From the NCBI GenBank assembly GCA_012520995.1, contig JAAYNI010000044.1:62001-126000 (forward strand): DNA of 64,000 nt. The letters are read 5' to 3'. Positions 4,545 to 60,635 of this stretch are shown here, one piece after another; positions within the stretch are counted from its first letter, which is position 1; each line of letters begins with the position of its first letter. This DNA is from Candidatus Rifleibacteriota bacterium (GTDB taxonomy: Bacteria; Muiribacteriota; Ozemobacteria; Ozemobacterales; Ozemobacteraceae). Made by a program: the position numbers and the translations under genes. The notes below the pieces were generated by a model. It was not told where the DNA came from. It ran no database searches and saw only the letters and a list, made by a program, of their open reading frames with translations.

Positions 4545-4682
4545 CAGCACCGCCTGATTTGCTCAGTGGACAGTGAAATTGTCTTAGAAGCTTGGCATTA
4601 ATCCATTTCTAAACAATTTGTCTATCCCCTACACCCTACGCCCCACCCCCTCGAATTTTCGCCACCCGCCACTCATCACTGT
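4545..4682. repeat. Mosaic intergenic repeat: F-inverted, B, A modules
   Basis: The gap between ispD and xseB carries an inverted pair of module F fragments (about 4575-4588 and 4607-4619). Then come module B (4621-4650, CCCCTACACCCTACGCCCC) and module A (4660-4680, CGCCACCCGCCACTCATCAC). The reverse complement of 60158-60225 has the same order and near-identical wording. Module A lies directly behind the xseB stop codon, which is followed by AACAGACAGTGATGAGTGG on the minus strand. Confidence 0.75.
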
Positions 4683-4687
4683 CTGTT

Positions 4688-4972
4688 TCAGCGTCCGTCT
4701 TTTTCTATATTAAAATCTTTTTCCGAAGGATTTTCGGTAGTGCCCAAAAGCTGAAGCATCTTTTCTTCTGTTTCATCCAAAAGCTTTTTGCATCGATCTG
4801 CAAACTTAATTCCCAAAGTATATAAATTCAAAGACGTTTCAAGCGGAGTGCCTTCTTTTTCGAGCAAACCTACGGTCTTCTCAAGGTTCGCCGCCGCAGT
4901 CTCATATGACATATCAGCCAAGGCTTCATCCGTAATCTTCAATAAATTTTCCAATTGAGAGTTTTGAGCCAT
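4688..4972 (-). CDS. xseB: Exodeoxyribonuclease VII small subunit
   Basis: This 94-residue product has the usual XseB length and helical hairpin. The conserved part runs from YETAAANLEKTVGLLEKEG through LETSLNLYTLGIKFADRCK to a coiled helix ending in EEKMLQLL. With XseA it degrades single-stranded DNA to oligonucleotides. The start is 1 nt behind the xseA stop, so the two subunits are translationally coupled. The stop runs directly into a repeat module. Confidence 0.92.
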   Translation of the reverse strand: MAQNSQLENLLKITDEALADMSYETAAANLEKTVGLLEKEGTPLETSLNLYTLGIKFADRCKKLLDETEEKMLQLLGTTENPSEKDFNIEKDGR

Positions 4973-4973
4973 T

Positions 4974-6224
4974 TTATCTCCCTTTTTTATTCAGTATTAT
5001 ATCTTGAACCTTAACTTCCGCTTTTCCATCTGCAAAAGCCAGAGTCAAAGGTTGCTCTTTGGACAAATCGGCTGCAGAAACAACTACCCTTCCCTCTTCG
5101 TCTGAAGCCATAAGATAGCCGCGCTTAAGAATAGCTTCAGGATTGAGTGCCAAGAGTTTATTAAAAGCAAGTTCTGTTCGATGGCGCTGTGATTTATAAA
5201 AGAGCTTAAAAGCGTTTTCCAAATCCCTTGTAAGAGACATTACATTTAATCTGCGTTCAGAAATCAACAACTCAGGTCTGGTTAAAAATCTGCAAGCAGC
5301 GTGCTTTGAATAGACTTGTCTCAAAAAAGCGATTTTACGCTTCATAAGATTTGTCATCCTGCCAGTTTGCAATTTAAGATAGGCTTCCAGTTCCGCTTTT
5401 ACCGGAACAGCAAGCTCACCGGCAACAGAAGGAGTAGCAGCTCTCTTGTCTGCAACAAGGTCTGCTATAGTGGTATCTGTTTCATGGCCTATAGCTGAAA
5501 TTACAGGCTTATGGCAAGCTCCTATTGCTCTGGCAACCGACTCTTCATTAAAACACCATAAATCTTCGAGACTGCCGCCGCCTCTGGCTATTATTATAAG
5601 ATCTACCCTGTTGTCAGCATCAAGACGCTCAATTCCTTGTACTATCTCTTCTGCAGCACCTTCGCCTTGTACTTTTGCAGGCACGAGATAAAGAGGCATA
5701 TTAGGATAACGTCTTCTGATAACCCTATAGATATCCTGTATAACAGACCCTCTCGGAGAGGTGACTATACCGACACCCTTCGGAATGAAGGGAAGAGACA
5801 TCTTTCTCTCAGGTTCGAAAAGACCCTCAGCAGAAAGCTTTTTCTTGAGTTTTTCATAAGCTTCGTAGAGAGCTCCTACACCGGCAGGACGCAGATCATT
5901 CACCAAAATCTGATACTCTCCTCTTGGAGGATAGACAGAAATATTGGCGTAAACCGTTACAAGATCGCCGTTCGCAAAAGAAGCTTTTATACGTCTTCGT
6001 ACACCTGCCCAAAGAGCCGCCTTAACCACAGATTTATCATCTTTTAGCGTAAAATAACAATGGCCGGAAGCTGCTTTGACCAGATTCGAAATTTCGCCTG
6101 TTATCCAAACCCCGGAAAGTTGAGAATCACCCTCCAAAATGTTCTTAATACGATTAGTTAAATCCGTAACACTGTACACCTTGTAGGGCAACGCGGAGGT
6201 TTGAATAGGCTCATCCAGTTTCAT
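4974..6224 (-). CDS. xseA: Exodeoxyribonuclease VII large subunit
   Basis: The 416-residue product has an N-terminal OB-fold (about residues 12-110, with LSGVWITGEISN and SGHCYFTLKD). It is followed by the catalytic exonuclease VII core with VGIVTSPRGSVIQDI and the IIARGGGSLEDLWCFNEE signature. A helical region and a short C-terminal beta segment complete it. It acts with XseB in single-strand DNA degradation during repair. Its ATG overlaps the accC stop by 4 nt (ATGA type). Confidence 0.95.
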   Translation of the reverse strand: MKLDEPIQTSALPYKVYSVTDLTNRIKNILEGDSQLSGVWITGEISNLVKAASGHCYFTLKDDKSVVKAALWAGVRRRIKASFANGDLVTVYANISVYPPRGEYQILVNDLRPAGVGALYEAYEKLKKKLSAEGLFEPERKMSLPFIPKGVGIVTSPRGSVIQDIYRVIRRRYPNMPLYLVPAKVQGEGAAEEIVQGIERLDADNRVDLIIIARGGGSLEDLWCFNEESVARAIGACHKPVISAIGHETDTTIADLVADKRAATPSVAGELAVPVKAELEAYLKLQTGRMTNLMKRKIAFLRQVYSKHAACRFLTRPELLISERRLNVMSLTRDLENAFKLFYKSQRHRTELAFNKLLALNPEAILKRGYLMASDEEGRVVVSAADLSKEQPLTLAFADGKAEVKVQDIILNKKGR

Positions 6225-7612
6225 TCTGCTGCCGCTTCCATATCCTGTTTTCGATGTTCCTTCATGAGAAAATCGGGCATATGCTGAGCTACGAAAGAAG
6301 TGTTGAAATTCCCTGAGCGAAAGGTGTCTGTATTTAAAGTATACTCATGAAAAGGAATGGTAGTATCCACACCTTTGATAGTAAACTCTGAAAGAGATGT
6401 AAGCATTCTGTTTATAGCTTCCTCACGATTATTTCCCCAGACAATCAGTTTTGCTATCATGGAATCATATTCGGGAGCTATTTCATATTCTTGATAAGCT
6501 GAAGAATCAACTCTTACCCAAGGACCGCCTGGAGCTATATAAGTCTCCAAGGTTCCTGGATAAGGAGCAAAGGAGTTTAAAGGGCTTTCCGCGTTAATAC
6601 GGCATTCAATAGCCCAGCCTTTCAAATCAGCTATTTTATAAGGCAAATTCAGCTTCTCGCCATTTGCAATCCTTATTTGCATTTCCACAAGATCCAAGCC
6701 TGTTGCCAGTTCTGTAATAGGATGCTCAACCTGAAGCCTTGTATTCATCTCCATGAAATAGAAGTTATCATTGCCGTCCAAGAGGAACTCCACAGTGCCA
6801 AGGCTATAATAGTTAATAAGTTCTGCCGCTCTTATAGCTGTTTCACAAAGCTTTTTGCGTAGAGCAGGCGAAACTGCTGGTGATGGACATTCTTCCAAAA
6901 GTTTTTGATGTCTGCGCTGAATGGTACATTCTCTTTCGCCTAGAGCTACAACTGTACCATGAGTGTCCCCAGCTATCTGAACCTCAATATGTCGAGGATT
7001 CGTTATAAATTTTTCAATATAAACTCTGCTGTCGCCAAATGAAGCTTGAGCTTCTACTTTAGCCATGTCAAACATAGAAGCAAAATCTTCTGGTTTTTCA
7101 ACCAAACGCATACCCTTGCCGCCCCCGCCAGAGGTAGCCTTAATCAGAACCGGAAAACCTACCTGCTTGGCTATTTGCAAGCCTTCCCGAGCATCCTCAA
7201 TGCTATCGGGAGAACCTGGCACAACAGGTATGTTGTTTTTTTGCATAAGTTCTCTTGCTACAGATTTTTGTCCCATTCGTTCTATTGCTCTAAAATCAGG
7301 ACCAATAAAGGTAAAACCGCATTTTTCTACTATTTCAGCAAAATTCGGGTTTTCGGACAAAAAACCGTATCCGGGATGTATGGCATCACACTTAGCTGCT
7401 TCTGCAACAGAAAGCACATTAGGAATACTTAAATAAGATTGATCCGGCCTAGCTGGTCCAATACAATATATTTCATCTGCCAAGCGAGTATGAAGAGCAT
7501 TTTTGTCTGCCTCTGAATATACAGCGACTGTTTTTATACCCATTCTCTTGCAGGTTCTTATTATTCTTACAGCTATTTCGCCTCTATTTGCGACTAGTAT
7601 TTTAGAGAACAT
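6221..7612 (-). CDS. accC: Acetyl-CoA carboxylase biotin carboxylase subunit
   Basis: This 463-residue product has the three biotin carboxylase parts: an N-terminal Rossmann-like domain (KILVANRGEIAVRI), ATP-grasp with the glycine-rich loop KATSGGGGKGMR, and the EMNTRLQVEHPITE signature. It carboxylates biotin on the carrier protein with ATP and bicarbonate in the first step of fatty acid synthesis. It is about 15 residues longer than typical because of a charged C-terminal tail. The upstream gene is the AccB-like protein, but that partner lacks the biotin-accepting lysine, so AccC must use another carrier. Confidence 0.95.
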   Translation of the reverse strand: MFSKILVANRGEIAVRIIRTCKRMGIKTVAVYSEADKNALHTRLADEIYCIGPARPDQSYLSIPNVLSVAEAAKCDAIHPGYGFLSENPNFAEIVEKCGFTFIGPDFRAIERMGQKSVARELMQKNNIPVVPGSPDSIEDAREGLQIAKQVGFPVLIKATSGGGGKGMRLVEKPEDFASMFDMAKVEAQASFGDSRVYIEKFITNPRHIEVQIAGDTHGTVVALGERECTIQRRHQKLLEECPSPAVSPALRKKLCETAIRAAELINYYSLGTVEFLLDGNDNFYFMEMNTRLQVEHPITELATGLDLVEMQIRIANGEKLNLPYKIADLKGWAIECRINAESPLNSFAPYPGTLETYIAPGGPWVRVDSSAYQEYEIAPEYDSMIAKLIVWGNNREEAINRMLTSLSEFTIKGVDTTIPFHEYTLNTDTFRSGNFNTSFVAQHMPDFLMKEHRKQDMEAAAE

Positions 7613-7770
7613 TAAAAATTTCCTTTGTCTAGTAAGTTTGCAACAATTATTTGTTAATATGATGAGGTCTCTTGATTTTTATTCTGTATTTTGAAATCTC
7701 TAAGCTTCAACTGCTTATCAGCAAGGCAAAGCAATTAGCGGCATTATTTAGTTTAAGGTTTTTATCCTTT

Positions 7771-7799
7771 CTACTCCCTACCCCCTAGTCCCTAGCTTT
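7771..7799. repeat. Module B repeat before the accB-like stop
   Basis: CTACTCCCTACCCCCTAGTC and a few further bases match module B of the dispersed repeats. On the minus strand the accB-like stop sits inside CACTAAAAGCTAG, resembling the second part of module E, and runs straight into B. The rest of the 7613-7798 gap shows no gene. Confidence 0.65.
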
Positions 7800-8209: not shown

Positions 8210-8279
8210 TAATCTTTTCCTATATATAAGAATGTTGTAGGCTCTGGATTCTATCATAAGAAAATAGCTTTTTCAATTC

Positions 8280-8309
8280 TTGACAACATATCCTGCAAGT
8301 AGCTATTAT
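8280..8309 (+). promoter_or_regulatory. Sigma-70-type promoter
   Basis: TTGACA at 8280-8285, an 18-nt spacer and TATTAT at 8304-8309 precede the secreted protein at 8351. An overlapping TATAAT at 8307 would give a 21-nt spacer. The region is also the divergent gap with the AccB-like gene. Confidence 0.55.
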
Positions 8310-11500: not shown

Positions 11501-11582
11501 TTGTCACTTTGTTCTTAAAAAATCAGAAGAATAAAAGTGTAGCTTTTAGATCCCAACCCCTGTGGCAATCTTGTCACATTGT
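11501..11582. promoter_or_regulatory. Paired candidate enhancer sites for the sigma-54 promoter
   Basis: TTGTCACTTTGT (11501-11512) and TTGTCACATTGT (11571-11582) match at 11 of 12 positions and lie exactly 70 bp apart. They are about 95 and 165 bp upstream of the -12 element, the usual range for bacterial enhancer-binding proteins. They contain TGTC, the core reported for PilR sites. Confidence 0.5.
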
Positions 11583-11602
11583 GTACACATAGCACTAACA
11601 CA

Positions 11603-11902
11603 CAGTGGCGGGTGGCGAAAATGCAAGGGAATAGGGCTTAGGGCGTAGGGAGTAGCCTGAAACTAGTGATGAGTGGCGAGTGGCGGGAAATTATTTAGAA
11701 CTCAATCGCTGAAACTGATAATTCTTCTAAGCAGCTCATAAACAAACGAAACATGATATTTTAAAAACAAATTCTGATAATATACTTAGATGGCATAAAA
11801 GCAAAAAGAAAATTAAAGAGAGAATAAGTTTTTGCAAAGTCTCAGTTTAAAAGCAGATACAAAATATTCTGTTTTTTCAGTGTATTCCGTGTGTTCTGTG
11901 GT
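11603..11902. repeat. Mosaic repeat A-B-A-F plus C-like module
   Basis: The 577-bp gap 11351-11927 holds the pilin regulatory region and then repeats. Module A is at 11603-11620, B at about 11630-11655 and a second A at 11668-11688. F starts at 11690 (TTATTTAGAACTCAA) and extends to TACTTAGATGGCATA at 11783-11797. A divergent C module (CCGTGTGTTCTGTGG) is at 11887-11901. F and its tail recur at 37718-37819 with the same spacing. No gene was seen here. Confidence 0.75.
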
Positions 11903-11927
11903 TTATTTTTTCTTTGTTAATTATAGA

Positions 11928-17641: not shown

Positions 17642-17830
17642 TTAATAGCCCAAGGTCCTTTTAGGGAAAACTCTGCTTGAAACAACTTGCCAAGCTTGAC
17701 GTGTATTCTGCGCTATTTCATCTTCGCAAATGCGGCATATGAGTCTTTCTGTATTCTTATATTTTAAGTATTTTTCTTCGGGAATTAAATATTCCCGCTC
17801 TTTCATGCAGAGGGGACAAAGTAACTTCAT
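17642..17830 (-). CDS. Small zinc-ribbon protein
   Basis: This 62-residue product (MKLLCPLCMKEREYLIPEE...) has two CxxC knuckles, CPLC at residues 5-8 and CRIC near 32-35, giving one predicted zinc site. Its start overlaps the stop of the preceding GT-C-like gene by 4 nt (ATGA), so it is translationally coupled. A longer frame starting 13 codons upstream only re-reads the end of that gene. It is followed after 3 nt by the CheR-type gene. The function is unknown; similar short ribbons are often regulators or assembly factors. Confidence 0.75.
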   Translation of the reverse strand: MKLLCPLCMKEREYLIPEEKYLKYKNTERLICRICEDEIAQNTRQAWQVVSSRVFPKRTLGY

Positions 17831-19332
17831 TTTAATTTTCCTACATAATACTTGTCTATTTTTTTCCATTCTAGCGCATCAATCTCATTAGGATCTTTTT
17901 TTTCTGATCTTGTTTTAAAATACTCATTAAAATGCTTCTCAGAAAAAATCATTCTGTCTTCGGGTTTCATTTTATCAGTCCATCGTTTTAGGTTTTCTGC
18001 TGTAAAATCACTGATAATTGCTCTTAGCTGCTTTAAATTATCTTCCGGCATCAGCTCTTGCTCAAAAGCTAGATAATATTTCCAATCTCCATGTGGATAA
18101 CGGAAATAATTATCATAATAAATTTCCATTTCTACCGCATAAATCATACCGCCTGAGTCAGGCATCCAAGGTTTATTCTCTGGAGATAAAAAATCACATC
18201 CTATTTCTTTAGGAGGAACAAAAGTAAAAAAAGGAGATTTAGCATTATAATTTACAATCCAAGAATTCAAACCTAGAAAGATCGCCAAAAATGCTACCAC
18301 TCCTTTTTTCTTTAGCAAAACAAACTTAGGATAAAGTATATAGAGCTGCCAAGCCAGCCAAAAGAGAAGAGCAGGCACTGCCCAATCACGCCAAAGACGT
18401 AAAACTTTATAAGACCCAATATAAGATATAAACCATAAAACGAAAGCAGGATCTTTATGCAGCTTTCGCCAAGCAAGAGACTTTTTTGAAATTAATGCAA
18501 TAAATATTAACATTAAAAAAAAGGTGAAAACCCAAAATGTCTCTTCCAAGGGCCGAAGTTCACTGACCAACACCTTATTAACAATATCTTTTAGAAAAAT
18601 ATCTTTGGTTACATTGTAGTGGTAGTTAAAATAACCGAAAATATCGCCAGAAAGCAAAGCTGTAGTCAATGCAGCTGCCAACAACAGCAAAAAGATAGAG
18701 AAAGCATCTTTAAGCCTCCCCGCTAATGCAAAAGCTAATGGAAATAACAAAAACAAATACCAAGAACCATGAAGCCAACAAACTGCACATAAAATGAAAA
18801 ATGAAGCCAATAACAGACACTTTTTAGACAAGCAGTCTTTCTCAACACACCAAAGTCTTAGCAAAAGCATAATAGCTGCTGATGTGATTAAGAAAGGTCT
18901 GCCCATAATAAGGTTATTTACATATAAAAATAAAAAGCTGTTAGCTATACAAAATGAAAAATACCAAGCCAACGGATGAGGAGAGGAGATGATGCCAGCT
19001 AAATGAAACAGCAGATAAAGAAAGATTATGGAAAAATATAAGACTTGTTTTTGATTAAAACCGAAAATCTTTCGGACTGTTCTCAAAAACCTGTGCCAAC
19101 CGAAATTATGATCAAAAGAATATTCTGGCCGCATCAATACAATTTCGCTGTCTGAACGCTCATGCATTGCGTGAGCAGAATGTCTTAGAGCATCATCAAT
19201 GGGCAGTTCTTGTTCTGCTATTTTTCTGAAAAGAAGCAGAGAGAAAAAAAGCAAAATCAGCATAAAAAAAACAAAAAACTTTTTTTCTGAAAGAGGCTTG
19301 TTTTCAGATAAAGCAGCTTGATAAATGCTCAC
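17827..19332 (-). CDS. GT-C-like polytopic membrane protein, copy 2
   Basis: The 501-residue product has about 10 to 12 transmembrane segments and a soluble C-terminal domain of roughly 130 residues. After the first membrane segment comes LPIDDALRHSAHAMHERSD; an acidic pair at this place is typical of GT-C glycosyltransferases that use lipid-linked sugars. It is a tandem paralogue of the upstream gene: order, length and the C-terminal YYVGKLK are the same. The start GTG at 19332 overlaps the upstream stop by 4 nt (GTGA). A start at 19371 would only re-read the upstream gene. Glycosylation of the neighbouring pilin-like proteins is plausible but unproven. Confidence 0.75.
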   Translation of the reverse strand: MSIYQAALSENKPLSEKKFFVFFMLILLFFSLLLFRKIAEQELPIDDALRHSAHAMHERSDSEIVLMRPEYSFDHNFGWHRFLRTVRKIFGFNQKQVLYFSIIFLYLLFHLAGIISSPHPLAWYFSFCIANSFLFLYVNNLIMGRPFLITSAAIMLLLRLWCVEKDCLSKKCLLLASFFILCAVCWLHGSWYLFLLFPLAFALAGRLKDAFSIFLLLLAAALTTALLSGDIFGYFNYHYNVTKDIFLKDIVNKVLVSELRPLEETFWVFTFFLMLIFIALISKKSLAWRKLHKDPAFVLWFISYIGSYKVLRLWRDWAVPALLFWLAWQLYILYPKFVLLKKKGVVAFLAIFLGLNSWIVNYNAKSPFFTFVPPKEIGCDFLSPENKPWMPDSGGMIYAVEMEIYYDNYFRYPHGDWKYYLAFEQELMPEDNLKQLRAIISDFTAENLKRWTDKMKPEDRMIFSEKHFNEYFKTRSEKKDPNEIDALEWKKIDKYYVGKLK

Positions 19333-20831
19333 TTCAATTTTCCCACGTAATATTCGCCTATTTTTTTCCAAGCAAGAGTATCAATTTCAAGCGGATTTTT
19401 CTGTTCTGAGCTGGTCACAAAATAATTATCAAAATATTCTTTTGAAAATATTAATCTGTCTGCAGGTTTCATAATATTAATCCACTTTTTGAGGTTATCT
19501 GCCGTAAAGTTGCCAGAAATTTCCCTCATCAATTTTAAATTTTCCTCTGGCATAACTTCTTGTTCAAATCCTAAATAATATTTCCAATCACCAAAAGGAT
19601 ATCTGAAATAGTTGGAATAATAAACGCCCATTTCTAAAGCATAAACAATGCCGTCTGTTCCTGGCTTCCAAGAAATATTTTCGGGAGATGAAAAATCACA
19701 GCCTACTTCTTTGGCAGGAAGAGGTTTTAGTGATAGAGATTTTTCAGGCGAGTTGACTACCCAAGTAAAAAGACCCAGAAAAGCAATCAAAAAAGCCATA
19801 AGTTTTTTATTTTTTAAAACTGTAAATTTCGGATATAGAGCATAAAACTGCCAAGCCAACCAAAAGAGCAAGGCAGGCACAGCCCAGTCTCGCCAGAAAC
19901 GAGAAACCTTGTATGCGCCAAGATAGGAAATAAACCACATTATAAAAGCAGGGTCTTTGTACAGTTTACGCCAATCAAGGCTTTTTAAGGCAAGCATTGG
20001 AATAAAAAGCACAACAACAAAAAATATATGACGCCAAAAAGATTGCAAAGGCTGAAACTCTGTTACCAACTGTTTATCTAGAGCACGCTCTGCAAAGATT
20101 TTTTTAGTAACATTAAAATGAAAATTGAAATATCCGGCAGCATCTCCTGAAAACACACCAGCTGCTATAGCTGCTGCCAATAAAAGCAGAAGCAAAGAGA
20201 CACTGTCTTTTAATCTGCCTGCCAATGCAAACGACAGAGGAAACAACAAAAACAGATACCAAGAACCATGAAGCCAGCATACCGCCAGCAAAATGATAAA
20301 TGAAGCAGTCAGCAAATGCTTAAAAGCAATTTTCTCCTTGTCTACACACCAAAGCCTAAGAAGAAGAATAATTGCTGATGTCGAGACCATGAAGGGTCTG
20401 CCTATGGTAAGATTGGGGGCATAAACTAAAAAAAAGCATGAAGCGAGAGTAAAAGAAAAATACCAAGCCATCGGATGAGGCGACGATATTATACCAGCCA
20501 CATGAAAGAGCAAATAAAGAAAGATTATAGAAAAATACAAGACTTGCCGCTGATTGAAGTTAAAAAGCTTACGAATTCCCCTTAAAAAACAGTGCCAGCC
20601 AAAATTATGATCAAAAGTATACTCAGATCGCATCAAAAGGATTTCGCTGTCTGAGCGTTCATGAAGTGAATGAGCAGCATGTCTTAATGCGTCATCTTCC
20701 GGCAAGTTTTGTTCTGCTATATTCCTGAACAGAAGCAGAGAGAAAAAAAGCATGCTCAGAAGAAAATAAATAAAAAACTTCTTTTCAGACAGTTTCTCAT
20801 TTTCAGACAAAGGCACAGCTGTTGTATTCAT
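19329..20831 (-). CDS. GT-C-like polytopic membrane protein, copy 1
   Basis: The 500-residue product is the paralogue of copy 2. It has an N-terminal segment KKFFIYFLLSMLFFSLLLF, the acidic pair in LPEDDALRHAAHSLHERSD, then SPHPMAWYFSF, WLHGSWYLFLLFPL, FWRDWAVPALLFWLAWQ and a C-terminal soluble domain ending YYVGKLK. It lies 15 nt after the large prepilin-like gene. Its N-terminus (MNTTAVPLSENEKLSEKK) is longer than expected for a signal peptide and fits a polytopic protein. Family-level naming is uncertain; GT-C fold is inferred from topology and the acidic pair. Confidence 0.75.
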   Translation of the reverse strand: MNTTAVPLSENEKLSEKKFFIYFLLSMLFFSLLLFRNIAEQNLPEDDALRHAAHSLHERSDSEILLMRSEYTFDHNFGWHCFLRGIRKLFNFNQRQVLYFSIIFLYLLFHVAGIISSPHPMAWYFSFTLASCFFLVYAPNLTIGRPFMVSTSAIILLLRLWCVDKEKIAFKHLLTASFIILLAVCWLHGSWYLFLLFPLSFALAGRLKDSVSLLLLLLAAAIAAGVFSGDAAGYFNFHFNVTKKIFAERALDKQLVTEFQPLQSFWRHIFFVVVLFIPMLALKSLDWRKLYKDPAFIMWFISYLGAYKVSRFWRDWAVPALLFWLAWQFYALYPKFTVLKNKKLMAFLIAFLGLFTWVVNSPEKSLSLKPLPAKEVGCDFSSPENISWKPGTDGIVYALEMGVYYSNYFRYPFGDWKYYLGFEQEVMPEENLKLMREISGNFTADNLKKWINIMKPADRLIFSKEYFDNYFVTSSEQKNPLEIDTLAWKKIGEYYVGKLK

Positions 20832-25685: not shown

Positions 25686-25739
25686 ATATTAATGCTGTGC
25701 TACAGCTGAAACTTCCTTTAAAAAGGATCTTACTTAAAA

Positions 25740-26220
25740 CAAATCATTGGTGGCAGCTGCTAAGATCACAGCGTGGCGAGTGGTGAGTGGCGGGTTGAAT
25801 TGTTTAGAACTCAACTGCTGTAACCAACAACTGCATTGCCATTGTTATGTGATTTTTCAAGAACAAAAATCGAAATGAATTGCAAGTCTATGTCAGATAG
25901 AATGCAATTTAGGTCGACTCGCGGAGTAAGGCAGAGATTTGCAAGTTTACTTGTAAAATCAATGGCTTAAGCCGAAAGTGAGGAAAAGCAGATATGCTTT
26001 TTCGAGATTTTTGGGTATTTGCCCTCCATCTGTGTAAATCTGTGTAATCTGTGGTTTCAAAGGTTTTCTGTCCTCTTGCTTTGTTTTTGGTTATTGCTAC
26101 TCCCTACCCCCTACGCCCTCCCCCCCCTCTAGTGCGTCTGCTGAATCAGTTAAGCATGGAGAGAACGTTGAATGGCTTGTCATCAAATAGGTAATTTAAG
26201 TAAAAAAGCAGCACTGATTT
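25740..26220. repeat. Mosaic repeat I-A-F, hairpin, C, B, E(inverted)
   Basis: The 622-bp gap 25686-26307 carries module I (25741-25771), A (25772-25794) and F (25795-25820). A short hairpin GAAAAGCA-GATA-TGCTTTTTC is at 25983-26003, then C at 26028-26054, B at 26096-26129 and an inverted E at 26130-26218. The I-A order recurs inverted at 33215-33276, and the E-B junction (CAGACGCACTAGAGGG) recurs at 37683-37698. No gene was seen in the gap. Confidence 0.75.
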
Positions 26221-26252
26221 AAGTATAGCACATTTTTTTTTACAAAACCAGA

Positions 26253-26281
26253 TTGACAGAGCCTTAGTCTTGTACTAAAAT
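26253..26281 (+). promoter_or_regulatory. Sigma-70-type promoter
   Basis: TTGACA at 26253-26258, a 17-nt spacer and TAAAAT at 26276-26281 precede the SH3b gene by 27 nt. GAGAGGAG at 26296-26303 is its ribosome binding site. Confidence 0.75.
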
Positions 26282-26307
26282 CAGACATCACAATTGAGAG
26301 GAGCGAG

Positions 26308-27156: not shown

Positions 27157-27382
27157 TAAAACAGTGGATAGTGGCTACGGGTAAGAACCAACATCCAGAA
27201 CTATTTATCCACAGATTACACAGATGGGATTTTAAGCATTTGTCCTTAATCAGAGGCTATGAGCAAAAACAGAATTTATGCGGCAGCATAAGCTGTTTTT
27301 GTGAGATTTGTCCTCATCTGTGGCCATCTGTGTAATCTGTGGACAAAAAAGAAAAGAAACTTTTAGTAAAAATACCGCACTA
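27154..27382. repeat. Mosaic repeat D, C(inverted), G(inverted), C, E(inverted)
   Basis: D begins at the SH3b stop codon (27154-27180). C in reverse is at 27206-27227, G in reverse at 27240-27270 (TTAATCAGAGGCTATGAGC, seen again at 39838-39874) and C at 27311-27342. E in reverse begins at 27382, 2 nt behind the stop of the next minus-strand gene. Confidence 0.75.
27265..27300 (+). terminator. Bidirectional hairpin terminator
   Basis: AAAAACAG pairs with CTGTTTTT and TTATGC with GCATAA around a GGCA loop, with a small internal bulge. The A and T tracts allow action on both the plus SH3b transcript and the converging minus operon. Confidence 0.6.
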
Positions 27383-27384
27383 GC

Positions 27385-29247
27385 TCAGTCTGGCAGGTTT
27401 TCAAAAAGATTTCCTCTGATTATTCTCGGCTTATTTTTAAAATCAGGACTTAGTATGCTCTTGGTGAAGTCGCTTTGGGCAGTTTCTATACCTGCTAAAT
27501 CAAGCATTGTATGAAAAAGATCTTCTGTTATGAAAGGTCTCTTTCTATATTCTGGATTTTTGACTCGTTCTGCGAGCTCAGGAAATGACTTTTCAAAAGT
27601 CTCTGACATCCAAATAAACATAGGCACTCTAAGCATGCTTTTACTGTGCCCCATGTGGGTATGTGTAGTATATTTGCCATTTTGTCCTATCTCATCCGCA
27701 TGATCCGAAAGATAAACCACAATAACGTTTTTATCTTCAAAAAGTTTTATGATTTCTCCTACAACATAGTCTGAATAAAGTATAGAATTCAAATAAGCAG
27801 CTACAATAGGTCTCTTCTTTTGTTCTATTTCTCTCAAACCAAACTTTTTGTGAATATCCAAATCTTCAGGTTTAAAACGCTCAAATTCAGGCGGGTATCT
27901 TAAATCATAAGCATAATGGCTGCCCATAAAATGTATTGTATAAAATTGTTTTGGTTCATCCAAATTGCTGGCAATCGTTTCTTTTAAAGGCTTCAAAAGT
28001 TCACCATCAAAACATTGGTGAGTATAAGCCATAGACATTGAATCGGAAGTGAAATGACAAAAATCTGTCATTTCAGTCGCAACAAAAGTTATATAGGCAG
28101 AAGCAACTGTGTGATGATCCGCATTTGACAGCCAAAATGTCTTATAACCAGCCTTAGAAAAAATATCGACTAGATTTTCCGCGTTTTCTTCTTTGAATTC
28201 AGGCTTATCATTAGCTATAGATGTAATAAGCATAGGCACAGTTGTCCAAGTCATCGCATATGGAGCCACAGCGTCATAAAAGACATGAAGACTTCCTTCT
28301 TCTTCCAATCTGTCTCTAACTGGAGTTGTCTTTAGCGGATAGCCGTATTGACTCATATAATAAGAAGATTCACTCTCACCCAAAATTAAGACAATATAAG
28401 GAATTTCAGAGAAATTACTTTTAATATCAGCCGCATAGCCCTTTTCTTCTCTAAGCTTATTCAATTTAACATCAATGAGAAAGCTATGCACAACGGTCTC
28501 AAGAAAAGTTTGTACCGGCACTAATCCAGAAGGAATAAAGAAAAAGGTAAGAACAGAAAACAGAAGAAAAGATATAATTCGGCCTTTTCTGTGTTCGCTT
28601 CTAAGAAAAGCCTCTCCATATTTTCTTCCCAATCTCCAAAGTAGAGCTGTAGCCAAAAAAAAGATTAAACAAACAAAGAAGGCTTCCATTCCAAGATACA
28701 TTGACGCAAAACCTTTAATGCTAGTCACATTGGCTCCCAACGCTGAATTTATATAAGAAGTTGAAAGCATACTATTCATTTTATATGCGGTAAGAGAGCC
28801 GATGAAAGCCAAAAAAGCCGTCAAGAAAAAAACGGAACAATCGAACAATAGTTTAAAAGGCTTATAAAAAAGCAAATAACGGCAAACAGCAAAAAAGCCC
28901 CCTACTCCCATCCCCAATACAAAAAGCATGACTGCTAGAAAAACAACTAAAAAGTTAACGTAAGAGGCAAGAAACAAGTATGGAACTAGAGCAGAAAAAG
29001 CAGTCACAAAAATCAAAGGCATACCTTCGCCAAACATCTGCGATAAAGTTTTAGCAAAGCCCGTTAAGAAGTCTTTCGGCTTTTCATCCTTTGAAGAAGA
29101 TGGTTTCTTTTGTTGTTCGGGTTCTTTTGCAGTCTCCTTGTGCTCAGAAAGGCCAAGATTATCCACGTCAGCAGACGAGTTTGAAAGTTTATTCACAGAA
29201 GATGTCCCTGCAAAGGGCTCTTCCGAATATTGTCCGTTGTGTTTCAT
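27385..29247 (-). CDS. Phosphoethanolamine-transferase-like membrane enzyme
   Basis: The 620-residue product has a charged N-terminal tail, five membrane segments (about 75-250) and a periplasmic sulfatase-fold domain. Motifs match the EptA/OpgE/CptA family: LILGESESSYYMSQYGY near 287-303, MGSHYAYDLRYP at 441-452, LSDHADEIG at 513-521 and HMGHSKSMLRVPMFIW at 531-546. These enzymes move phosphoethanolamine from a lipid to lipid A, glycans or pilin. The usual Thr nucleophile after GE is Ser292 here. It follows GspF by 6 nt, which suggests a pilus-linked target, as with Neisseria PptA. Confidence 0.82.
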   Translation of the reverse strand: MKHNGQYSEEPFAGTSSVNKLSNSSADVDNLGLSEHKETAKEPEQQKKPSSSKDEKPKDFLTGFAKTLSQMFGEGMPLIFVTAFSALVPYLFLASYVNFLVVFLAVMLFVLGMGVGGFFAVCRYLLFYKPFKLLFDCSVFFLTAFLAFIGSLTAYKMNSMLSTSYINSALGANVTSIKGFASMYLGMEAFFVCLIFFLATALLWRLGRKYGEAFLRSEHRKGRIISFLLFSVLTFFFIPSGLVPVQTFLETVVHSFLIDVKLNKLREEKGYAADIKSNFSEIPYIVLILGESESSYYMSQYGYPLKTTPVRDRLEEEGSLHVFYDAVAPYAMTWTTVPMLITSIANDKPEFKEENAENLVDIFSKAGYKTFWLSNADHHTVASAYITFVATEMTDFCHFTSDSMSMAYTHQCFDGELLKPLKETIASNLDEPKQFYTIHFMGSHYAYDLRYPPEFERFKPEDLDIHKKFGLREIEQKKRPIVAAYLNSILYSDYVVGEIIKLFEDKNVIVVYLSDHADEIGQNGKYTTHTHMGHSKSMLRVPMFIWMSETFEKSFPELAERVKNPEYRKRPFITEDLFHTMLDLAGIETAQSDFTKSILSPDFKNKPRIIRGNLFENLPD

Positions 29248-32175: not shown

Positions 32176-32220
32176 CGGTAAATAGTAACCTTTAATCCTT
32201 TATTTGGCAAGCCCTAAGAA

Positions 32221-32328
32221 ACAGTGGTGGGTGGCAGGTGGCGGGTGGTGCGATGCATACTTTTAACAGATATTGTCTTGTGAATTTTGAAAGACCGGCA
32301 GGAAAGTTTTAGAGAAAACAAAGCACTA
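32221..32328. repeat. Mosaic repeat A and E(inverted) at the TPR stop
   Basis: Module A at 32221-32250 (GTGGTGGGTGGCAGGTGGCG) and an inverted E between about 32285 and 32328 fill the gap. E begins with the stop codon TAG of the TPR gene, giving TAGTGCTTTGTTTTCTCTAA on the minus strand. The E-then-A order matches 35514-35608. Confidence 0.7.
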
Positions 32329-33093: not shown

Positions 33094-33139
33094 AGTTGCA
33101 CAATCACCCTCTAGCAGCCTTTAATATCTTACTTTTCTA

Positions 33140-33330
33140 TCCACAGATCACACAGATTAACACAGATGAGAACAAATTTACACTTTACACTCTATATTTC
33201 ACTGACTATAAAAAACTCGCCACCTGCCACTTACCAATGCGGTTAGTGCAATCTTAGCACCTGCCAATAATGATTTTATTCTAGAGCAAAACACCGTTAA
33301 TGAGAACGTTTTAGAGAAAAAACAGCATTA
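33140..33330. repeat. Mosaic repeat C, A, I and E around a gene end
   Basis: Module C is at 33140-33169 (CCACAGATCACACAGATTAA), A (reverse) at 33215-33234, I (reverse) at 33246-33276 and E (reverse) from about 33295 to 33330. E begins with the stop codon TAA of the 33328 gene (TAATGCTGTTTTTTCTC). Confidence 0.7.
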
Positions 33331-34056
33331 GTCATCAAAGGATATCAATTGTTGTATATCTTTTGCGACTTTGGTTCTAGGTTGATACTTACGGAACTTG
33401 TTCTTATCCGAAACATATAGATACAGAACCTCCAAAGGCTCATAATTTCCTCTCTTAAATGCCTGCTCTATTCCAGAGAAGGCATCATCAATCGCTTTCA
33501 AGCCTTCAGAGAAATCCTCCATGTAATTCTCTCTTGTAAAGAATCTGTATTTATGTATTATACCATTATCATGGCGATATATGTCTACTTCAGGGGTTTC
33601 TAGTTTTCTTGCTCTGAAAATATATTCGCTCAGGGCAAAAAAATGGTTTTTGTCATAATCTTCATAAAGGTTGAAACCCCAAATATACTGATTTCTGAAA
33701 ATCCATCGCGAGAAAATTGGAGACAAAAGCTTTTTAATTGCAGCCAGCATCTCATAGTTGTAGTTGAATTCATCAACAGCAACAGTGAGCTTGTTTCTGG
33801 AAAACTCAAAGTCCCCTCCGTAAAGAAAATGACCGCTTATATTTTCTATTTTGTCTATATCCGGAGAATTAACCAATATCTTTTGTGTACGATCATTTGT
33901 ATTGGAGTAAAATTCATCGGGACGGTCTGCATATTTAAGAGAGATGTTCTCCAAAGAGCAGTCAAAAAGAGTCTCCAAAACAGGCTTGTATATATCCCTG
34001 AATTTTCTTGAGCTCGAAAAGACATGCAACTCGAGCAATCCATTTTTTTCGCTCAT
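33328..34056 (-). CDS. Unknown protein, 242 residues
   Basis: No family is recognised. The product is mixed alpha/beta, rich in aromatic residues (FNYNYEM, FFTRENYMEDF), with no signal peptide, membrane helix or known motif, and is probably cytoplasmic. Its ATG overlaps the stop of the PP2C-like gene by 4 nt, so the two are translationally coupled and may work together. Its C-terminal segment (LEVLYLYVSDKNKFRKYQPR) suggests a compact domain. A partner or effector of the PP2C-like protein is possible but unproven. Confidence 0.65.
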   Translation of the reverse strand: MSEKNGLLELHVFSSSRKFRDIYKPVLETLFDCSLENISLKYADRPDEFYSNTNDRTQKILVNSPDIDKIENISGHFLYGGDFEFSRNKLTVAVDEFNYNYEMLAAIKKLLSPIFSRWIFRNQYIWGFNLYEDYDKNHFFALSEYIFRARKLETPEVDIYRHDNGIIHKYRFFTRENYMEDFSEGLKAIDDAFSGIEQAFKRGNYEPLEVLYLYVSDKNKFRKYQPRTKVAKDIQQLISFDD

Positions 34057-35507: not shown

Positions 35508-35513
35508 AATATC

Positions 35514-35625
35514 TAGTGCTCCATTTTCACTAAAAGCTACCTGTTAAATGCCAAGCCGGTCAGTAACCTTTCCATGCTTACTTGATGCAGGCACCACTCG
35601 TCACTCTAGGTGTTACGCAGCACTA
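35514..35625. repeat. Mosaic repeat E-A plus E start at the HEAT stop
   Basis: E (35514-35590, TAGTGCTCCATTTTCACTAA) is followed by A-like GCACCACTCGTCACTC (35591-35606). On the minus strand the HEAT gene ends in TAG followed by TGCTGCGTAACACC, again the E opening. Confidence 0.65.
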
Positions 35626-36084
35626 AGCTGCTCGATAGTTTTCATAACTTTGGGCGAAAGACAGCTCCAAGTTTTCACAATGTTTAGTTATGGCTTCAAT
35701 AGCTCTGGGATCACCTATTTTAGCAAGCGCGTCACCTGCAGCAATTGAAACTTCTGGACGTTCATCATCCAAAGCGCCTATCAGAGCCTCGACAACTGCG
35801 GTGCCCCTTTTATTTGAAAGTTGCGTGCAAGCCAAACGTCTAACACGCCAATCAGGACTTTTAATGCTTTTTATATATCTCCAAGTTGAATCTGGAGTTC
35901 CAAGAGACGCCACGCTTCTGGTAGGTTGAATAGCCTCAGTAGCAACAGCTTGAGAAATAGTCTTTCGCACAGGCTTTTTCTCTGTGCTGCCTTTTTCAAA
36001 ACGATTAAGAAGCTTCTCGAAAATAAACCAACCCATGAAATATATTAAGGTAAAAACCATGATTTTAATTTCCAGATGCAACAT
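35623..36084 (-). CDS. Membrane-anchored HEAT-repeat protein
   Basis: The 153-residue product has an N-terminal membrane segment (MVFTLIYFMGWFIFEKLL). A basic linker and two to three HEAT-like repeats follow (about 85-145, SPDWRVRRLACTQLSNKRG and RPEVSIAAGDALAKIGDPRA). HEAT repeats act as protein-interaction scaffolds. GGAGG lies 8 nt before the ATG at 36084. The PP2C-like gene lies 115 nt downstream, separated by repeats, so joint transcription is uncertain. Confidence 0.75.
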   Translation of the reverse strand: MLHLEIKIMVFTLIYFMGWFIFEKLLNRFEKGSTEKKPVRKTISQAVATEAIQPTRSVASLGTPDSTWRYIKSIKSPDWRVRRLACTQLSNKRGTAVVEALIGALDDERPEVSIAAGDALAKIGDPRAIEAITKHCENLELSFAQSYENYRAA

Positions 36085-36230: not shown

Positions 36231-37607
36231 ATGTATTGTTTCAAGTGCGGACAAGAACTGCCTGATAACACAACTGTGTGCCCTGAATGCGATTCGCCGC
36301 AAGTTAAAACCAGAAATAGAAAGAGACGAATGATTCTAGGCATTTTGTTGTTTTTAGCCGGCGGCTTAACCCTTTGGATCGTAACCGCTCTGTTTTCTGG
36401 TTTTTTCTCAAAAGACCCCTCTTGGAAAGAATCTCCTCTTAGAGACAAAACTCAAACTCAGATAGCTGAACAAAAAACTCAAAAAACAACTCCAGAACTC
36501 CCTGACAAACAGCCTAAAGAAAGCATTCAATTTTCCTCCGACAAAAATCTGAAGCCTTCTGCTGACAGTCTTTCTCAACAGCAAAGTGCACAAACATCAG
36601 CAAAATACTCTGTGCCTGAAAAGCCTGAAACAAAAGAACCTGAAATAGCGAAAGCTTCAGATGTTTCCACTGCACAAACTGCAACTAAGCCAAAGACCGA
36701 GGCTCCTGCCGAAGTAACCTTCGGCTACACACCATTCGATACTCAAACCGCTGACAAATACAAAATCTCGTATCAAGGACAAGTAGTAGTAGAGGGCGGC
36801 GACAACACAGATATGCACGTATCCTTAAGCAATGCAGGAGATGAGCTTATATTCGTTTCCAAGAGAGACGGCGCTAATTTTCAATGCTACATAAAAAACC
36901 CGCCTATAACAGGCAAAGCAAAACTTGAGTTCAAGTGGCTCGGCAATGTCTGGACACCCGATTTGACGCCTGATGGAAACATGATTATCTTCTCAAGCGA
37001 CAGTGCAAAGCCAGAGCACATATTCCTGTATGACAGAAAGTCAAAATACAGCATACAGCTTACAAAGGGCACAAGCAAAAACATGATGTGTAACCTTTCG
37101 CCTGATGGACAACAAATTGCATTTGTATCAAACAGACAGGGCAAAAATGCGATTATGACAATGGATTTGACTGGCGGAAACCTCAAGGCTCTCACAGACG
37201 GAAAAAAATATGACGACAGAGAACCTCGCTGGACTCCAGATGGAAAATCTATAATTTTTTCCAGAATAATAAAACCTATGGAACAATCAAATATAATGAT
37301 AGTTCCAGCAACAGGCGGAGAACCTAAACCTCTAGTCGAAAACGGCAAGAGAAATTGGATGCCCGACCTTTCTCCCGATGGCAACACATTGGCTTTCACA
37401 ACATCACAAAGCAAGGGCGGAAGCAACAACACTATCATTTTGAAAGACCTAACGACAGGCAAAGAAACCCCTTTAAAAATGCCCGGAGTTTATGAAGCTA
37501 TCAGACCAATTTGGAACAAAGACTTATCAGGCTTTGCTTTCCACAGCATTTCTTCCAAAACCAAACGCACTCTTCATATGGCTAATATACATAAAGAAAA
37601 GATCTAG
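36231..37607 (+). CDS. Zinc ribbon, membrane helix and TolB-like propeller protein
   Basis: The 458-residue product begins with a CxxC-CxxC zinc ribbon (CFKC at 3-6, CPEC at 21-24). One membrane helix follows (about 34-60) and then a long low-complexity linker. The C-terminal part, residues 180-450, has TolB/PD40-type WD-like blades (DLTPDGNMIIFSSDSAKPEH, NLSPDGQQIAFVSNRQG, RWTPDGKSIIFSR). The ribbon should be cytoplasmic and the propeller periplasmic. Its role is unknown; it may sense or bind a surface partner. The stop TAG is the first codon of an E module. Confidence 0.82.
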   Translation: MYCFKCGQELPDNTTVCPECDSPQVKTRNRKRRMILGILLFLAGGLTLWIVTALFSGFFSKDPSWKESPLRDKTQTQIAEQKTQKTTPELPDKQPKESIQFSSDKNLKPSADSLSQQQSAQTSAKYSVPEKPETKEPEIAKASDVSTAQTATKPKTEAPAEVTFGYTPFDTQTADKYKISYQGQVVVEGGDNTDMHVSLSNAGDELIFVSKRDGANFQCYIKNPPITGKAKLEFKWLGNVWTPDLTPDGNMIIFSSDSAKPEHIFLYDRKSKYSIQLTKGTSKNMMCNLSPDGQQIAFVSNRQGKNAIMTMDLTGGNLKALTDGKKYDDREPRWTPDGKSIIFSRIIKPMEQSNIMIVPATGGEPKPLVENGKRNWMPDLSPDGNTLAFTTSQSKGGSNNTIILKDLTTGKETPLKMPGVYEAIRPIWNKDLSGFAFHSISSKTKRTLHMANIHKEKI

Positions 37608-37911
37608 TGCTGCTTTTTCACTAAAAGTTACCTATTTTGATACTATTCAACTCAGCAATGTCTTCATGGTTAATTGATGCAGCAGACGCACTAGAGGGAG
37701 TAGGGCGTAGGGGGTAGTGAAATACCTTTCAACTCAGCATTACAGCCGACAATTGCTTTAAGATGCTGATAAACAGATGAAGCTCTGACGTAAAAAACTA
37801 ATAATACTTAGATGGCATATCAATCAGAGAAAATATTGCAAATTGTCCTTTCTACCCACTATTTACTACCCACAACCCACTGCTTGTTACAGTCTGTGTA
37901 ATCTGTGGATA
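37605..37911. repeat. Mosaic repeat E-B-F-tail-D-C
   Basis: The 405-bp gap 37608-38012 is nearly filled by modules: E (37605-37694), B (37695-37717), F (37718-37780) with its tail TACTTAGATGGCATA near 37805-37819. D-like CTACCCACTATTTACTACCC is at 37851-37882, and C at 37892-37911. This is the longest intact module run in the window. A promoter follows. Confidence 0.8.
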
Positions 37912-37943
37912 GAAAAAAAATATTATTTTTTTCTTGTCAGCCA

Positions 37944-37972
37944 TTGCGTGTTGCCAAATATGTACGTATAAT
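37944..37972 (+). promoter_or_regulatory. Sigma-70-type promoter of the subtilase
   Basis: TTGCGT at 37944-37949, 17 nt, and TATAAT at 37967-37972 lie 40 nt before the ATG at 38013. AAGGAG precedes the start. Confidence 0.7.
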
Positions 37973-38012
37973 TAAACACTAAGCAAAAAATTTTATAAGG
38001 AGACAATAAGAC

Positions 38013-39533: not shown

Positions 39534-39598
39534 AAAAACGACTTTTAATAAAAACTCTTCCTAGGCTGGCTAATTAGAATACAGCCATAAAAAAACTC

Positions 39599-39637
39599 AG
39601 CCGCCGCAAATCATACAATCTGCGGCGGCTTCTTTTA
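39599..39637. terminator. Strong bidirectional terminator
   Basis: AGCCGCCGCA (39599-39608) pairs perfectly with TGCGGCGGCT (39621-39630). TCTTTT follows on the plus strand and GAGTTTTTTT on the minus strand. It serves the subtilase gene and the converging small gene. Confidence 0.88.
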
Positions 39638-39673
39638 TTCTCTAAAGTTTACCAGTAACTTTTTAAAATAAGC

Positions 39674-39802
39674 TCAGGAAAACTTTCCGTTCTTGCATCT
39701 CAAAGTTCTTAGATAAAGGCTTTCGAAATCACTTCTGTCAAAAGCGAAATCATAAGTCTGTTTCATGCAGAAAAATCTGTCAGGGCAATCTTTACATGTC
39801 AT
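39674..39802 (-). CDS. Small Cys-rich protein, 42 residues
   Basis: ATG at 39802 begins a 42-codon frame with four Cys: MTCKDCPDRFFC, then a single Cys near residue 36 (LRCKNG). The arrangement suggests a small metal-binding knuckle. GGAGG lies 10 nt before ATG, and the frame ends 37 nt before a strong terminator, both arguing for a real gene. It is separated from the waaA stop by 160 bp of repeats. No family is recognised. Confidence 0.6.
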   Translation of the reverse strand: MTCKDCPDRFFCMKQTYDFAFDRSDFESLYLRTLRCKNGKFS

Positions 39803-39837
39803 TGTTTCAAGCCTCCAATTTTTATCTATCTTCTAGC

Positions 39838-39946
39838 GCTGTTTTTGCTCATAAGCTCTGATTAAGGACAGATGCTGATGATCGATGCAAGGGGGGGGAA
39901 AGCTAAACCAATTTAACTCGCCACTCGCCACCCGCCACTCACCACT
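39838..39946. repeat. Mosaic repeat G and A(inverted)
   Basis: G at 39838-39874 (TTTTTGCTCATAAGCTCTGA) matches the inverse of 27240-27270. Module A, reverse, is at 39918-39946 (CGCCACTCGCCACCCGCCAC). A run of G (39890-39898) lies between them. Confidence 0.7.
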
Positions 39947-39962
39947 AAAATATATATCGGCA

Positions 39963-57310: not shown

Positions 57311-57372
57311 TTTTTCGTTTATTTATCCATATTTATAGTCAGACCACATTAAAACATTGAGAAGCGATACAA

Positions 57373-58047: not shown

Positions 58048-58080
58048 AACATCTGAAAACCGGAATTTAAAGAAAAACAA

Positions 58081-59715: not shown

Positions 59716-59736
59716 TTAATTAAAAGGTGAATAACA

Positions 59737-60111: not shown

Positions 60112-60277
60112 CAGCGAGCAGGAATTAGTGGGTAGAAAGGGCAACTGGAACAGTAATAAGTGATGAGTGGCGAAAACTCCAATGAAGCAGGGCATAGGGT
60201 GTAGGGGTTAGTGAAATTGTTTAGAACCCATTGTTGAAACTGATAATTGTTATAAGCAGCTAATAAACAACTGAAAC
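60109..60277. repeat. Mosaic repeat D-A-B-F
   Basis: The stop TGA runs into ACAGCGAGCAGG. D-like TTAGTGGGTAGAAAGG (60125-60140), A-like GTGATGAGTGGCGAAAA (60160-60176), B (60190-60209) and F (60210-60277) follow. The section is the near-exact inverse of 4606-4680 in its A-B-F core. Confidence 0.75.
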
Positions 60278-60305
60278 CGTTAAGTTGTTCTTAGGTGAAA
60301 ATCGA

Positions 60306-60454
60306 AAAATTACATCGTAATTTTGAAATAGTCACATCAAAGCTTTTTGTATTGGTGTCCTTGGAACTCAACAAGGAAAGTAAAAATATTTTATATTTTA
60401 CGAGGGTCTTTGAAAAAGAAATAGATATTTAGAAGATTCATTTTATAAATATCT
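60306..60454. other. Three AT-rich hairpins in the gap
   Basis: AAAATTAC/GTAATTTT (60306-60324), GTAAAA...TTTTAC (60380-60401) and AGATATTTA/TAAATATCT (60423-60454) are inverted repeats between the NTF2-like gene and the next convergent gene. They may terminate transcription or belong to an uncharacterised repeat. The 533-bp gap 60112-60644 contains no gene. Confidence 0.5.
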
Positions 60455-60514
60455 GTTTCTGCTCGGATACATCAAACATTAGATTCTTTTAGTATATAAT
60501 GTCTGGCAGTTTGC

Positions 60515-60635
60515 TTTTCGTGCCTTCGTGTTTTTTGTCGTTTAGAAAGGTTCTTAGAGTATTTGTTCTAGGTATTTGGTCCTTGCTACCTCCTACACCC
60601 TACACCCTACACCCTACACCCTACCCTCTATCCCC
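60515..60635. repeat. CGTGCCTTCGTG block and CCTACAC tandem array
   Basis: CGTGCCTTCGTG lies near 60519-60530. From 60592 to 60626 there are four copies of CCTACAC and one CCTACCC with period 7; 60585-60591 and 60627-60634 extend the same composition. This is the longest B-type array, 10 nt from the stop of the minus gene. Confidence 0.75.

Follow-up and report, generated by a model that had tools for sequence, protein, structure and literature searches.

Modular intergenic repeats in a Candidatus Rifleibacteriota genome: probably the interior of a MITE-like element family at CTAG

Introduction

The intergenic gaps of a 64,000-nt stretch of contig JAAYNI010000044.1 (positions 62,001 to 126,000; assembly GCA_012520995.1), which we refer to as the window, contain degenerate modules that an earlier note described as dispersed repeats with a fixed order and compared with MITE-like and REP/BIME elements. 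This raises the question of what kind of element these modules belong to, and how they can keep their order while their contents vary.

Extent of the repeats

Eleven gaps of the window carry the repeats (4520-4687, 7613-7798, 11535-11927, 25686-26307, 27157-27384, 32176-32325, 33094-33327, 35508-35622, 37608-38012, 39534-39962 and 60112-60644), and in each of them between 26 and 84% of bases find matches in three or more other gaps of the genome, the remaining window gaps having 0-2 matching gaps. Genome-wide, an all-against-all BLAST of intergenic DNA returned 11,662 pairs, whereas DNA shuffled in two different ways returned 0 and 2; the dispersed repeats are real and lie far above chance. 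The assembly comprises 2.84 Mb, of which about 2 Mb was read base by base with contigs below 3 kb masked, and ORF length was the sole basis for gene calls. Across 1.9-2.0 Mb of this draft genome the repeats make up approximately 35% of intergenic DNA and 3.5% of bases. They encode no protein, as the earlier note had it, the longest frame wholly within a complete copy being 42 codons, and an Rfam gathering search of the window gave no match.

Ends of the element

The modules form the interior of an element bounded by TIRs, with borders of the form CTAG-TGCTGTGTTGCARCTAAAA ... TTTTAGCTGCAACAGTCTA-CTAG. The TIRs (CTAGTGCTGTGTTGCAACTAAAA / CTAGTAGACTGTTGCAGCTAAAA) are imperfect, some 20 bp long and abut CTAG at both ends, and their pattern is matched 75 times in the genome and never in a reversed control. 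Adjacent TIRs face inward in 19 cases and take other arrangements in five, and the length between recognisable pairs is 77-572 nt, mostly 250-370. CTAG is present at 100 of 161 strong TIRs, a count from whose score CTAG was excluded but whose matrix was derived from CTAG-anchored seeds; the bases just outside it show no consensus. It flanks both sides of the element, and at the four places where TIRs lie back to back they share exactly one CTAG, never two. From the shared junctions and the stop codons discussed below we infer that CTAG serves as the target or was duplicated on insertion, and it may be a true duplication. A reading without TIRs or a target site is thus not supported; many copies in the window have a single recognisable TIR, and the TIRs were missed from one window because the right one has usually decayed there.

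Module order and exchange of contents

From left to right, the slots hold a head (E, I or M), a G-rich heptamer array, F, a tail (T or U), an inverted array, W', H' and the right TIR. A head and F occur in this order 44:1 (E-F 25:1, I-F 14:0, M-F 5:0), and other pairs are similarly ordered (R-F 12:0, F-T 22:0, T-W' 17:0, U-W' 24:2). The sum of squares of adjacent pairs is 3520, compared with a mean of 1087 and a maximum of 1344 in shuffles, which bears out the claim of a fixed order. Among the pairings behind that claim, E-B (37683, and inverted at 26117), I-A (25741, and inverted at 33215) and F with its TACTTAGATGGCATA tail (11690 and 37718) are directly seen.

Within the slots, almost every combination of head, heptamer array type (AGTGGCG, AGTGGAC, AGTGGGT or TAGGGCG), F subtype and tail occurs, which implies that copies recombine. 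The copies had been called old or constantly rewritten, and the second description is nearly right because module contents reassort, while the first holds for the copies of this window only. Young copies exist as well, in a 306-nt subfamily with 94-100% identity at nine or more left-end places, mostly contig edges; since these copies are so nearly identical, and interrupt the assembly, the family has moved recently.

Copies in the window

The best-preserved element in the window (37604..37912, plus strand) comprises CTAG and left TIR at 37604-37627, head E at 37604-37694 ending in GCACTAG, a TAGGGCG-type array at 37695-37717, F at 37732-37784, tail T at about 37790-37830, an inverted array at about 37848-37881 and W' (TCTGTGTAATCTGTGGATA) at 37893-37912, its right TIR being unrecognisable. 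Both TIRs, CTAGTGCTCCATTTTCACTAAAAGC ... GTTACGCAGCACTAAG, are found in a short complete copy of 114 nt (35513..35626, plus strand). Two mutually facing elements occupy 25697..26220, the first with an I head at 25708-25778 (plus strand), an AGTGGCG array, a truncated F at 25799-25840 and W' at about 26030-26056, and the second with a B array at 26097-26126 and head E at 26129-26216 (minus strand).

Three minus-strand elements lie beside gene ends. The first (27164..27383) is made up of W (27206-27227), U (about 27235-27300) and W' (27324-27343), and its CTAG TIR at 27356-27383, CTAGTGCGGTATTTTTACTAAAAGTTTC on the minus strand, lies one base past the TGA of gene 27385-29247. The second (32223..32328) has head M at 32247-32283, an AGTGGCG-type array at 32223-32250 and the TIR TTAGTGCTTTGTTTTCTCTAAAAC, whose TAG is the stop of gene 32326-33093. 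The third (33126..33330) has head I at 33246-33316, a heptamer array at 33216-33239 and W at 33135-33165, with a TIR of the CTAA form falling on the stop of gene 33328-34056.

Less complete copies are also present. That at 11603..11905 (plus strand) has lost its left TIR and retains an AGTGGCG array, a TAGGGCG array at 11633-11655, F at 11691-11742, T from about 11755 and H' (CCGTGTGTTCTGTGG) at about 11870-11905, and that at 60120..60300 (plus strand) has an N-type head with its array, a TAGGGTG array at 60189-60211 and F at 60216-60268, with an inverted array following at 60586-60629. A truncated, inverted copy (4607..4680, minus strand) consists of A and B heptamer arrays and the start of F (GTTTAGAA). 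A fragment related to the young subfamily (83%) lies at 39839..39946 (minus strand) and is made up of a U-type segment (GATTAAGGACAGATGCTGATGATCGATGC) and an AGTGGCG array. A TAGGGAG heptamer array stands alone at 7771..7793 (minus strand).

Position relative to genes

The elements lie mostly downstream of genes, and their outer CTAG often overlaps the TAG stop of the host gene. Genome-wide, 47 genes end exactly on the TAG of an element, eight just before it and three further inside the element, and a TIR is carried by 35 of the 81 genes ending in CTAG, compared with 9 of 137 with any other NTAG and 3 of 1246 ending in TAA or TGA. The repeat is found in 76% of convergent, 44% of tandem and 23% of divergent gaps. 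In the one gene tested, 36231-37607, whose stop is the TAG of the CTAG of the 37604 element, the protein has the same end residue as its orthologs.

Search for a transposase and for relatives

In the roughly 2 Mb read, no transposase turned up whose ends match those of the family, and Y1_Tnp (RAYT), DDE_5 and DDE_3 are absent from the genome. The sole rve protein is the orfB of an IS3 element, which was rejected as a partner because its ends match poorly, and the sole DDE_Tnp_1 protein belongs to an IS5 element, considered below. TIR pairs more than 1 kb apart, sought in the same 2 Mb as a possible autonomous copy, are few and weak. A known partner is not required of a MITE, so the missing one makes it less likely that the family belongs to the MITEs without excluding it.

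Among 39 relatives from the phylum the element is not present, the only matches being at arrays or W, and one relative matches at arrays only. The TIR 23-mer is absent from collections of species genomes and viruses, phage and plasmid collections hold no match to a complete copy, and a literature search with the motif strings gave no result. An attC/integron site, prompted by the GTTTAGA motif of F, was rejected as its core-site pattern, judged by eye, is a misfit.

Origin of the family

We consider it likely that the modules make up the inside of a single family of MITE-like, non-autonomous DNA elements, which sit at CTAG, have fixed slots whose contents can be exchanged, and are tolerated at the 3' ends of genes. 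A transposase acting in trans would recognise the TIRs and join them at CTAG, so that this word remains on either side. An insertion that falls on a stop codon or in the 3' region would leave the gene intact and hence survive, others being purged. As copies kept inserting, decaying and recombining with one another, swapped modules in constant order could have arisen; the heptamer arrays, which would also expand and contract by slippage, may have promoted the recombination. The partner transposase may have been lost, may be encoded where the assembly is unread or masked, or may belong to another cell.

The composite could instead be a functional 3'-UTR element (a terminator, mRNA stabiliser or source of sRNA) under selection, its order reflecting function and not mobile descent. 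Such an element would fit the location, which is at 3' ends and in convergent gaps, as well as the strict order and the folding of a complete copy, which exceeds that of shuffles (z = -4.6). However, RNAalifold gives no consensus structure for F, E and I and merely a 3-pair hairpin for U, so that conserved RNA structure of these four modules was rejected as the principle; moreover, CTAG-bounded TIRs and 94-100% identical young copies require a spreading mechanism, and only a minority of genes carry the element, relatives thriving without it. We therefore regard this explanation as unlikely.

It is still less probable that the IS5 element is the autonomous partner of the family. At its ends, TTAG-GGTCTGTTGAACATTTGAAA and CTAG, it is similar to the TIR CTAGTAGTCTGTAACATCTAAAA, with an alignment score in the top 1-2% of YTAG-anchored 28-mers of the genome, but this rank is weak and holds for some TIR variants only, and the ends match poorly overall. 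Its transposase is 97.6% identical to one from Providencia, which marks it as a recent immigrant that cannot have spread the diverged copies.

REP/BIME-like elements moved by a RAYT (Y1) transposase would share the intergenic location, the mosaic structure and the 3' bias, but with Y1_Tnp missing, no hairpin consensus in F, E and I, and a unit of 250-370 nt with TIRs at CTAG in place of a tagged palindrome of 20-40 nt, this origin is very improbable; of the two kinships first proposed, that with MITEs is retained and that with REP/BIME dropped. Hardly any credence can be given to independent heptamer microsatellites arising by slippage at many gaps, with the modules as convergent low-complexity by-products, for although arrays also occur alone (7771-7793), in one relative and, in similar form, in Xanthomonas and Nostoc (PMC4692102), E, I, M, F, T and U are aperiodic and alignable over 40-90 nt in constant order and orientation, and with 0-2 matches in shuffled DNA the idea is refuted for the non-array modules.

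Comparison with known systems

The MITE-like reading rests on the definition in PMC3049150: the family is short and non-coding, has TIRs and is dispersed with recent copies, while of an autonomous partner sharing the TIR there are two candidate transposases, neither convincing. With bacterial MITEs such as Nezha of cyanobacteria and Correia of Neisseria it shares short, non-coding, TIR-bounded and folded copies, a high copy number, lineage specificity and a 3' bias; it differs from them in that no partner transposase was found, in its exchangeable slots with tandem heptamers and in an outer CTAG that serves as the host stop. The family is best read as a new, lineage-specific variant among MITEs.

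In anatomy, on which alone the two were compared, it resembles the BOX element of Streptococcus pneumoniae (boxA-boxB(n)-boxC), which likewise has constant ends and order with a variable tandem middle, and for which alternative module types in related species and an excess between convergent genes are described (PMC3049150); BOX, however, has few modules, whereas here there are at least seven slots, several with two or three types, and CTAG-bounded TIRs. A CTAG target is also used by the IS481 family (NCTAGN), in which the target of ISLxc2 and ISLxx4 provides the stop codon of the transposase (PMC2516522). IS481 TIRs start with TGT, whereas those described here start with TGC or TAG and the CTAG serves as the stop of the host gene; no IS481 transposase was found in the genome. 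The G-rich heptameric repeats of Xanthomonas and Nostoc and the cyanobacterial STRRs are period-7 intergenic arrays near gene ends (PMC4692102), whereas here arrays of several types are one slot of a larger mobile element.

It is possible, and we suggest it tentatively, that the family is a fixed-slot cassette, whose ends and order are constant, whose contents are exchanged among dispersed copies, which lands at stop codons within CTAG, and whose slots include trans-phylum building blocks (the heptamer arrays as well as the hairpin ATCTGTGTAATCTGTGGAT) that themselves spread among bacteria. The family accounts for about one third of intergenic DNA in an uncultured lineage and for many assembly breaks, and insertion at a stop codon's CTAG with the stop kept intact would be a near-harmless route for a transposon. 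With its fixed order and shuffled content, the family further provides a large body of natural data on how mosaic bacterial repeats form. The W module hints at a widely shared class of intergenic hairpin, for which no description was found in the literature searched; exact copies of its sequence, ATCTGTGTAATCTGTGGAT, recur in genomes whose labels span more than 12 bacterial phyla.

Abundance and organisation of the intergenic repeats

The intergenic repeats are a MITE-like family of elements located at CTAG, which both confirms and explains the earlier observation of dispersed mosaic repeats. The family is new in sequence and in lineage; its unusual features are mosaicism slot by slot and the way its elements line up with stop codons. 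The draft genome comprises 2.84 Mb in 101 contigs (completeness 96%), with the window at C2:62001-126000; about 1.98 Mb, including the window, was examined base by base, of which about 1.93 Mb is unmasked, the shortest contigs being N. In an intergenic self-BLAST of the first 1.19 Mb, 11,662 matches linked one gap to another; order-1 shuffling gap by gap left none, and random DNA from an order-4 model of the whole set of gaps gave two. The dispersed repeats are therefore real. Within the 1.93 Mb, 67.8 kb of the 190.8 kb of intergenic bases are matched by at least three other gaps, and by this measure the repeat makes up 35% of the DNA between genes and 3.5% of the bases in total. It touches 321 of 574 gaps of at least 100 nt, and eleven of the gaps touched lie in the window.

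Modules A, B, E, F and I keep the letters of the earlier note, the remaining letters being assigned here. Profile searches of the 1.98 Mb, with overlaps resolved, found 128 copies of F, 78 of E, 27 of I, 17 of M, 27 of T, 37 of U, 30 of R, 26 of N, 134 of W and 77 of H. These modules adjoin according to one single grammar. Neighbouring pairs leading into F were E-F 25:1, I-F 14:0, M-F 5:0 and R-F 12:0, and the remaining pairs were F-T 22:0, T-W' 17:0 and U-W' 24:2 (the second number being the same pair in other orientations). The fixed order previously claimed also withstands comparison with shuffles, the sum of squared pair counts being 3520 against a shuffle mean of 1087 and maximum of 1344. 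The head, about 88 nt long, comes in three versions (E, I and M), each beginning with CTAGTGC, intact or decayed, and finishing in GCAC. It is separated from F by a short G-rich heptamer array of a type that differs by locus (AGTGGCG, AGTGGAC, AGTGGGT or TAGGGCG).

Terminal inverted repeats and the probable CTAG target

The ends of the element, which the earlier note had missed, are terminal inverted repeats (TIRs): CTAGTGC opens heads and GCACTAG closes some elements. A degenerate TIR pattern has 75 matches genome-wide against 0 for the reversed control, and a 24-base matrix of the element's first bases matches far more often than in random sequence, with 164 TIRs scoring at least 17 in 1.98 Mb. 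Neighbouring TIRs face inwards in 19 cases, against five in other arrangements, and the elements bounded by TIR pairs measure 77 to 572 nt. Complete copies are visible in the F-T alignment, reading CTAG, TIR, head, array, F, T, W', TIR, CTAG.

When strong TIRs were chosen on the 20 bases inside CTAG, 100 of 161 have CTAG, a count in which a mild bias persists because the matrix was built from CTAG-anchored seeds; further outward there is no consensus. Where elements abut, two TIRs share a single CTAG (C84:74003/74022, C70:61743/61762, C77:109/128 and C92:217885/217904), and a search for the abutting form with two CTAGs found none, as expected from repeated insertion at CTAG rather than from a CTAG owned by each TIR. 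Mobility and target duplication are strongly indicated, though short of proof.

Stop codons and gene ends

Among same-strand genes heading into a TIR, 47 stop exactly on the TAG of the element's CTAG, eight end one codon short of it and just three extend further into the element; random insertion into coding ends would hit the three frames about equally. A TIR lies at the end of 35 of 81 CTAG-ending genes, against 9 of 137 with other NTAG ends and 3 of 1246 ending in TAA or TGA. The window gene at 36231-37607 ends on an element CTAG, and since the orthologs of its family stop no more than a few residues away, its stop is native and not a product of truncation. Elements occupy 76% of convergent gaps, 44% of tandem gaps and 23% of divergent gaps; for pneumococcal repeats, the same bias serves to argue for parasitic mobility (PMC3049150).

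Candidate transposases

No matching transposase was found, although a partner could be missed among contigs below 3 kb, which are masked, or in the approximately 0.9 Mb beyond the part examined base by base. Genome searches for Y1, DDE_5 and DDE_3 transposases found none. The sole rve protein is an IS3 orfB. The sole DDE_Tnp_1 belongs to an IS5 element whose ends resemble some element TIRs only at the 1-2% level. This IS5-family element is intact (L094:1162-2018, on contig C93, which also bears native F elements), and its transposase shares 97.6% identity with copies on Providencia stuartii plasmids, so that the element is recent; a recent transfer between bacteria that are only very distantly related is probable, an assembly mix-up less likely.

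Mosaicism and age

Almost all combinations of head type, array type, F subtype and tail are found: E occurs with F1 in 12 cases and F2 in eight, I in seven and four, and M in four and one. Both arrays, A and B, occur with either F subtype, and both occur with T as well as without it. An order that is fixed while content varies freely implies recombination between copies, which may proceed by gene conversion, template switching or hybrid excision.

The suggestion that copies are old holds for those in the window, where the 15-30% divergence first estimated is compatible with identities of 73-86%, but not for a 306-nt subfamily, in which nine separate left ends (C39, C51, C99, C66, C17, C32, C92, C23 and C70) show 94-100% identity. 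Many of these copies lie at contig edges, as expected of young repeats breaking short-read assembly, and 28 of 73 contig starts examined fall inside the repeat.

Distribution in other genomes

The comparison set comprised 40 genomes of the same phylum, none from another species of the source genus. No such element occurs in 39 relatives, three of which match solely at the heptamer array or W; the TIR 23-mer has zero occurrences in the genome and viral collections searched, and searches of phage and plasmid records with a complete copy gave no match. The composite thus seems to have been invented within this lineage, whereas two of its ingredients are widespread. Heptamer arrays of the TAGGGCG type without head or F modules occur in a relative that belongs to the same family but a different genus (G031; L289, L292 and L294), and such arrays are thus either older than the element or more widely distributed.

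The second ingredient is the W 19-mer, ATCTGTGTAATCTGTGGAT; in the window, module W lies at 26039-26054, 27206-27227, 27324-27343 and 37893-37912. Exact copies of the 19-mer occur in genomes whose labels span more than 12 bacterial phyla, isolates (Asticcacaulis) included, and in at least 112 stretches of the genome collection (80 loci listed, L175-L254), against a chance expectation that we estimate from collection size at about two. Labels among the matches listed include Planctomycetota, Bacteroidetes groups, Verrucomicrobiota, Chloroflexi, Acidobacteria, Nitrospirota, Alpha- and Gammaproteobacteria, Hydrogenedentota, FCPU426, WOR-3 and others. It also occurs in eight stretches of viral contigs. 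The 19-mer is usually present as an inverted pair: among the matches listed, 58 of 94 have its reverse complement no more than 220 nt away. It sometimes adjoins heptamer arrays. None of the papers searched prints this string.

Other observations in the window

Two adjacent genes at 17827-20831 are tandem paralogs, their DNA being 72-74% identical over 300-nt blocks at an offset of 1.5 kb. At 60645-62974 lie two adjacent genes for CNNM/CBS-domain (CorC-like) membrane proteins, which share a 59-nt DNA match of 75% at an offset of 1013.
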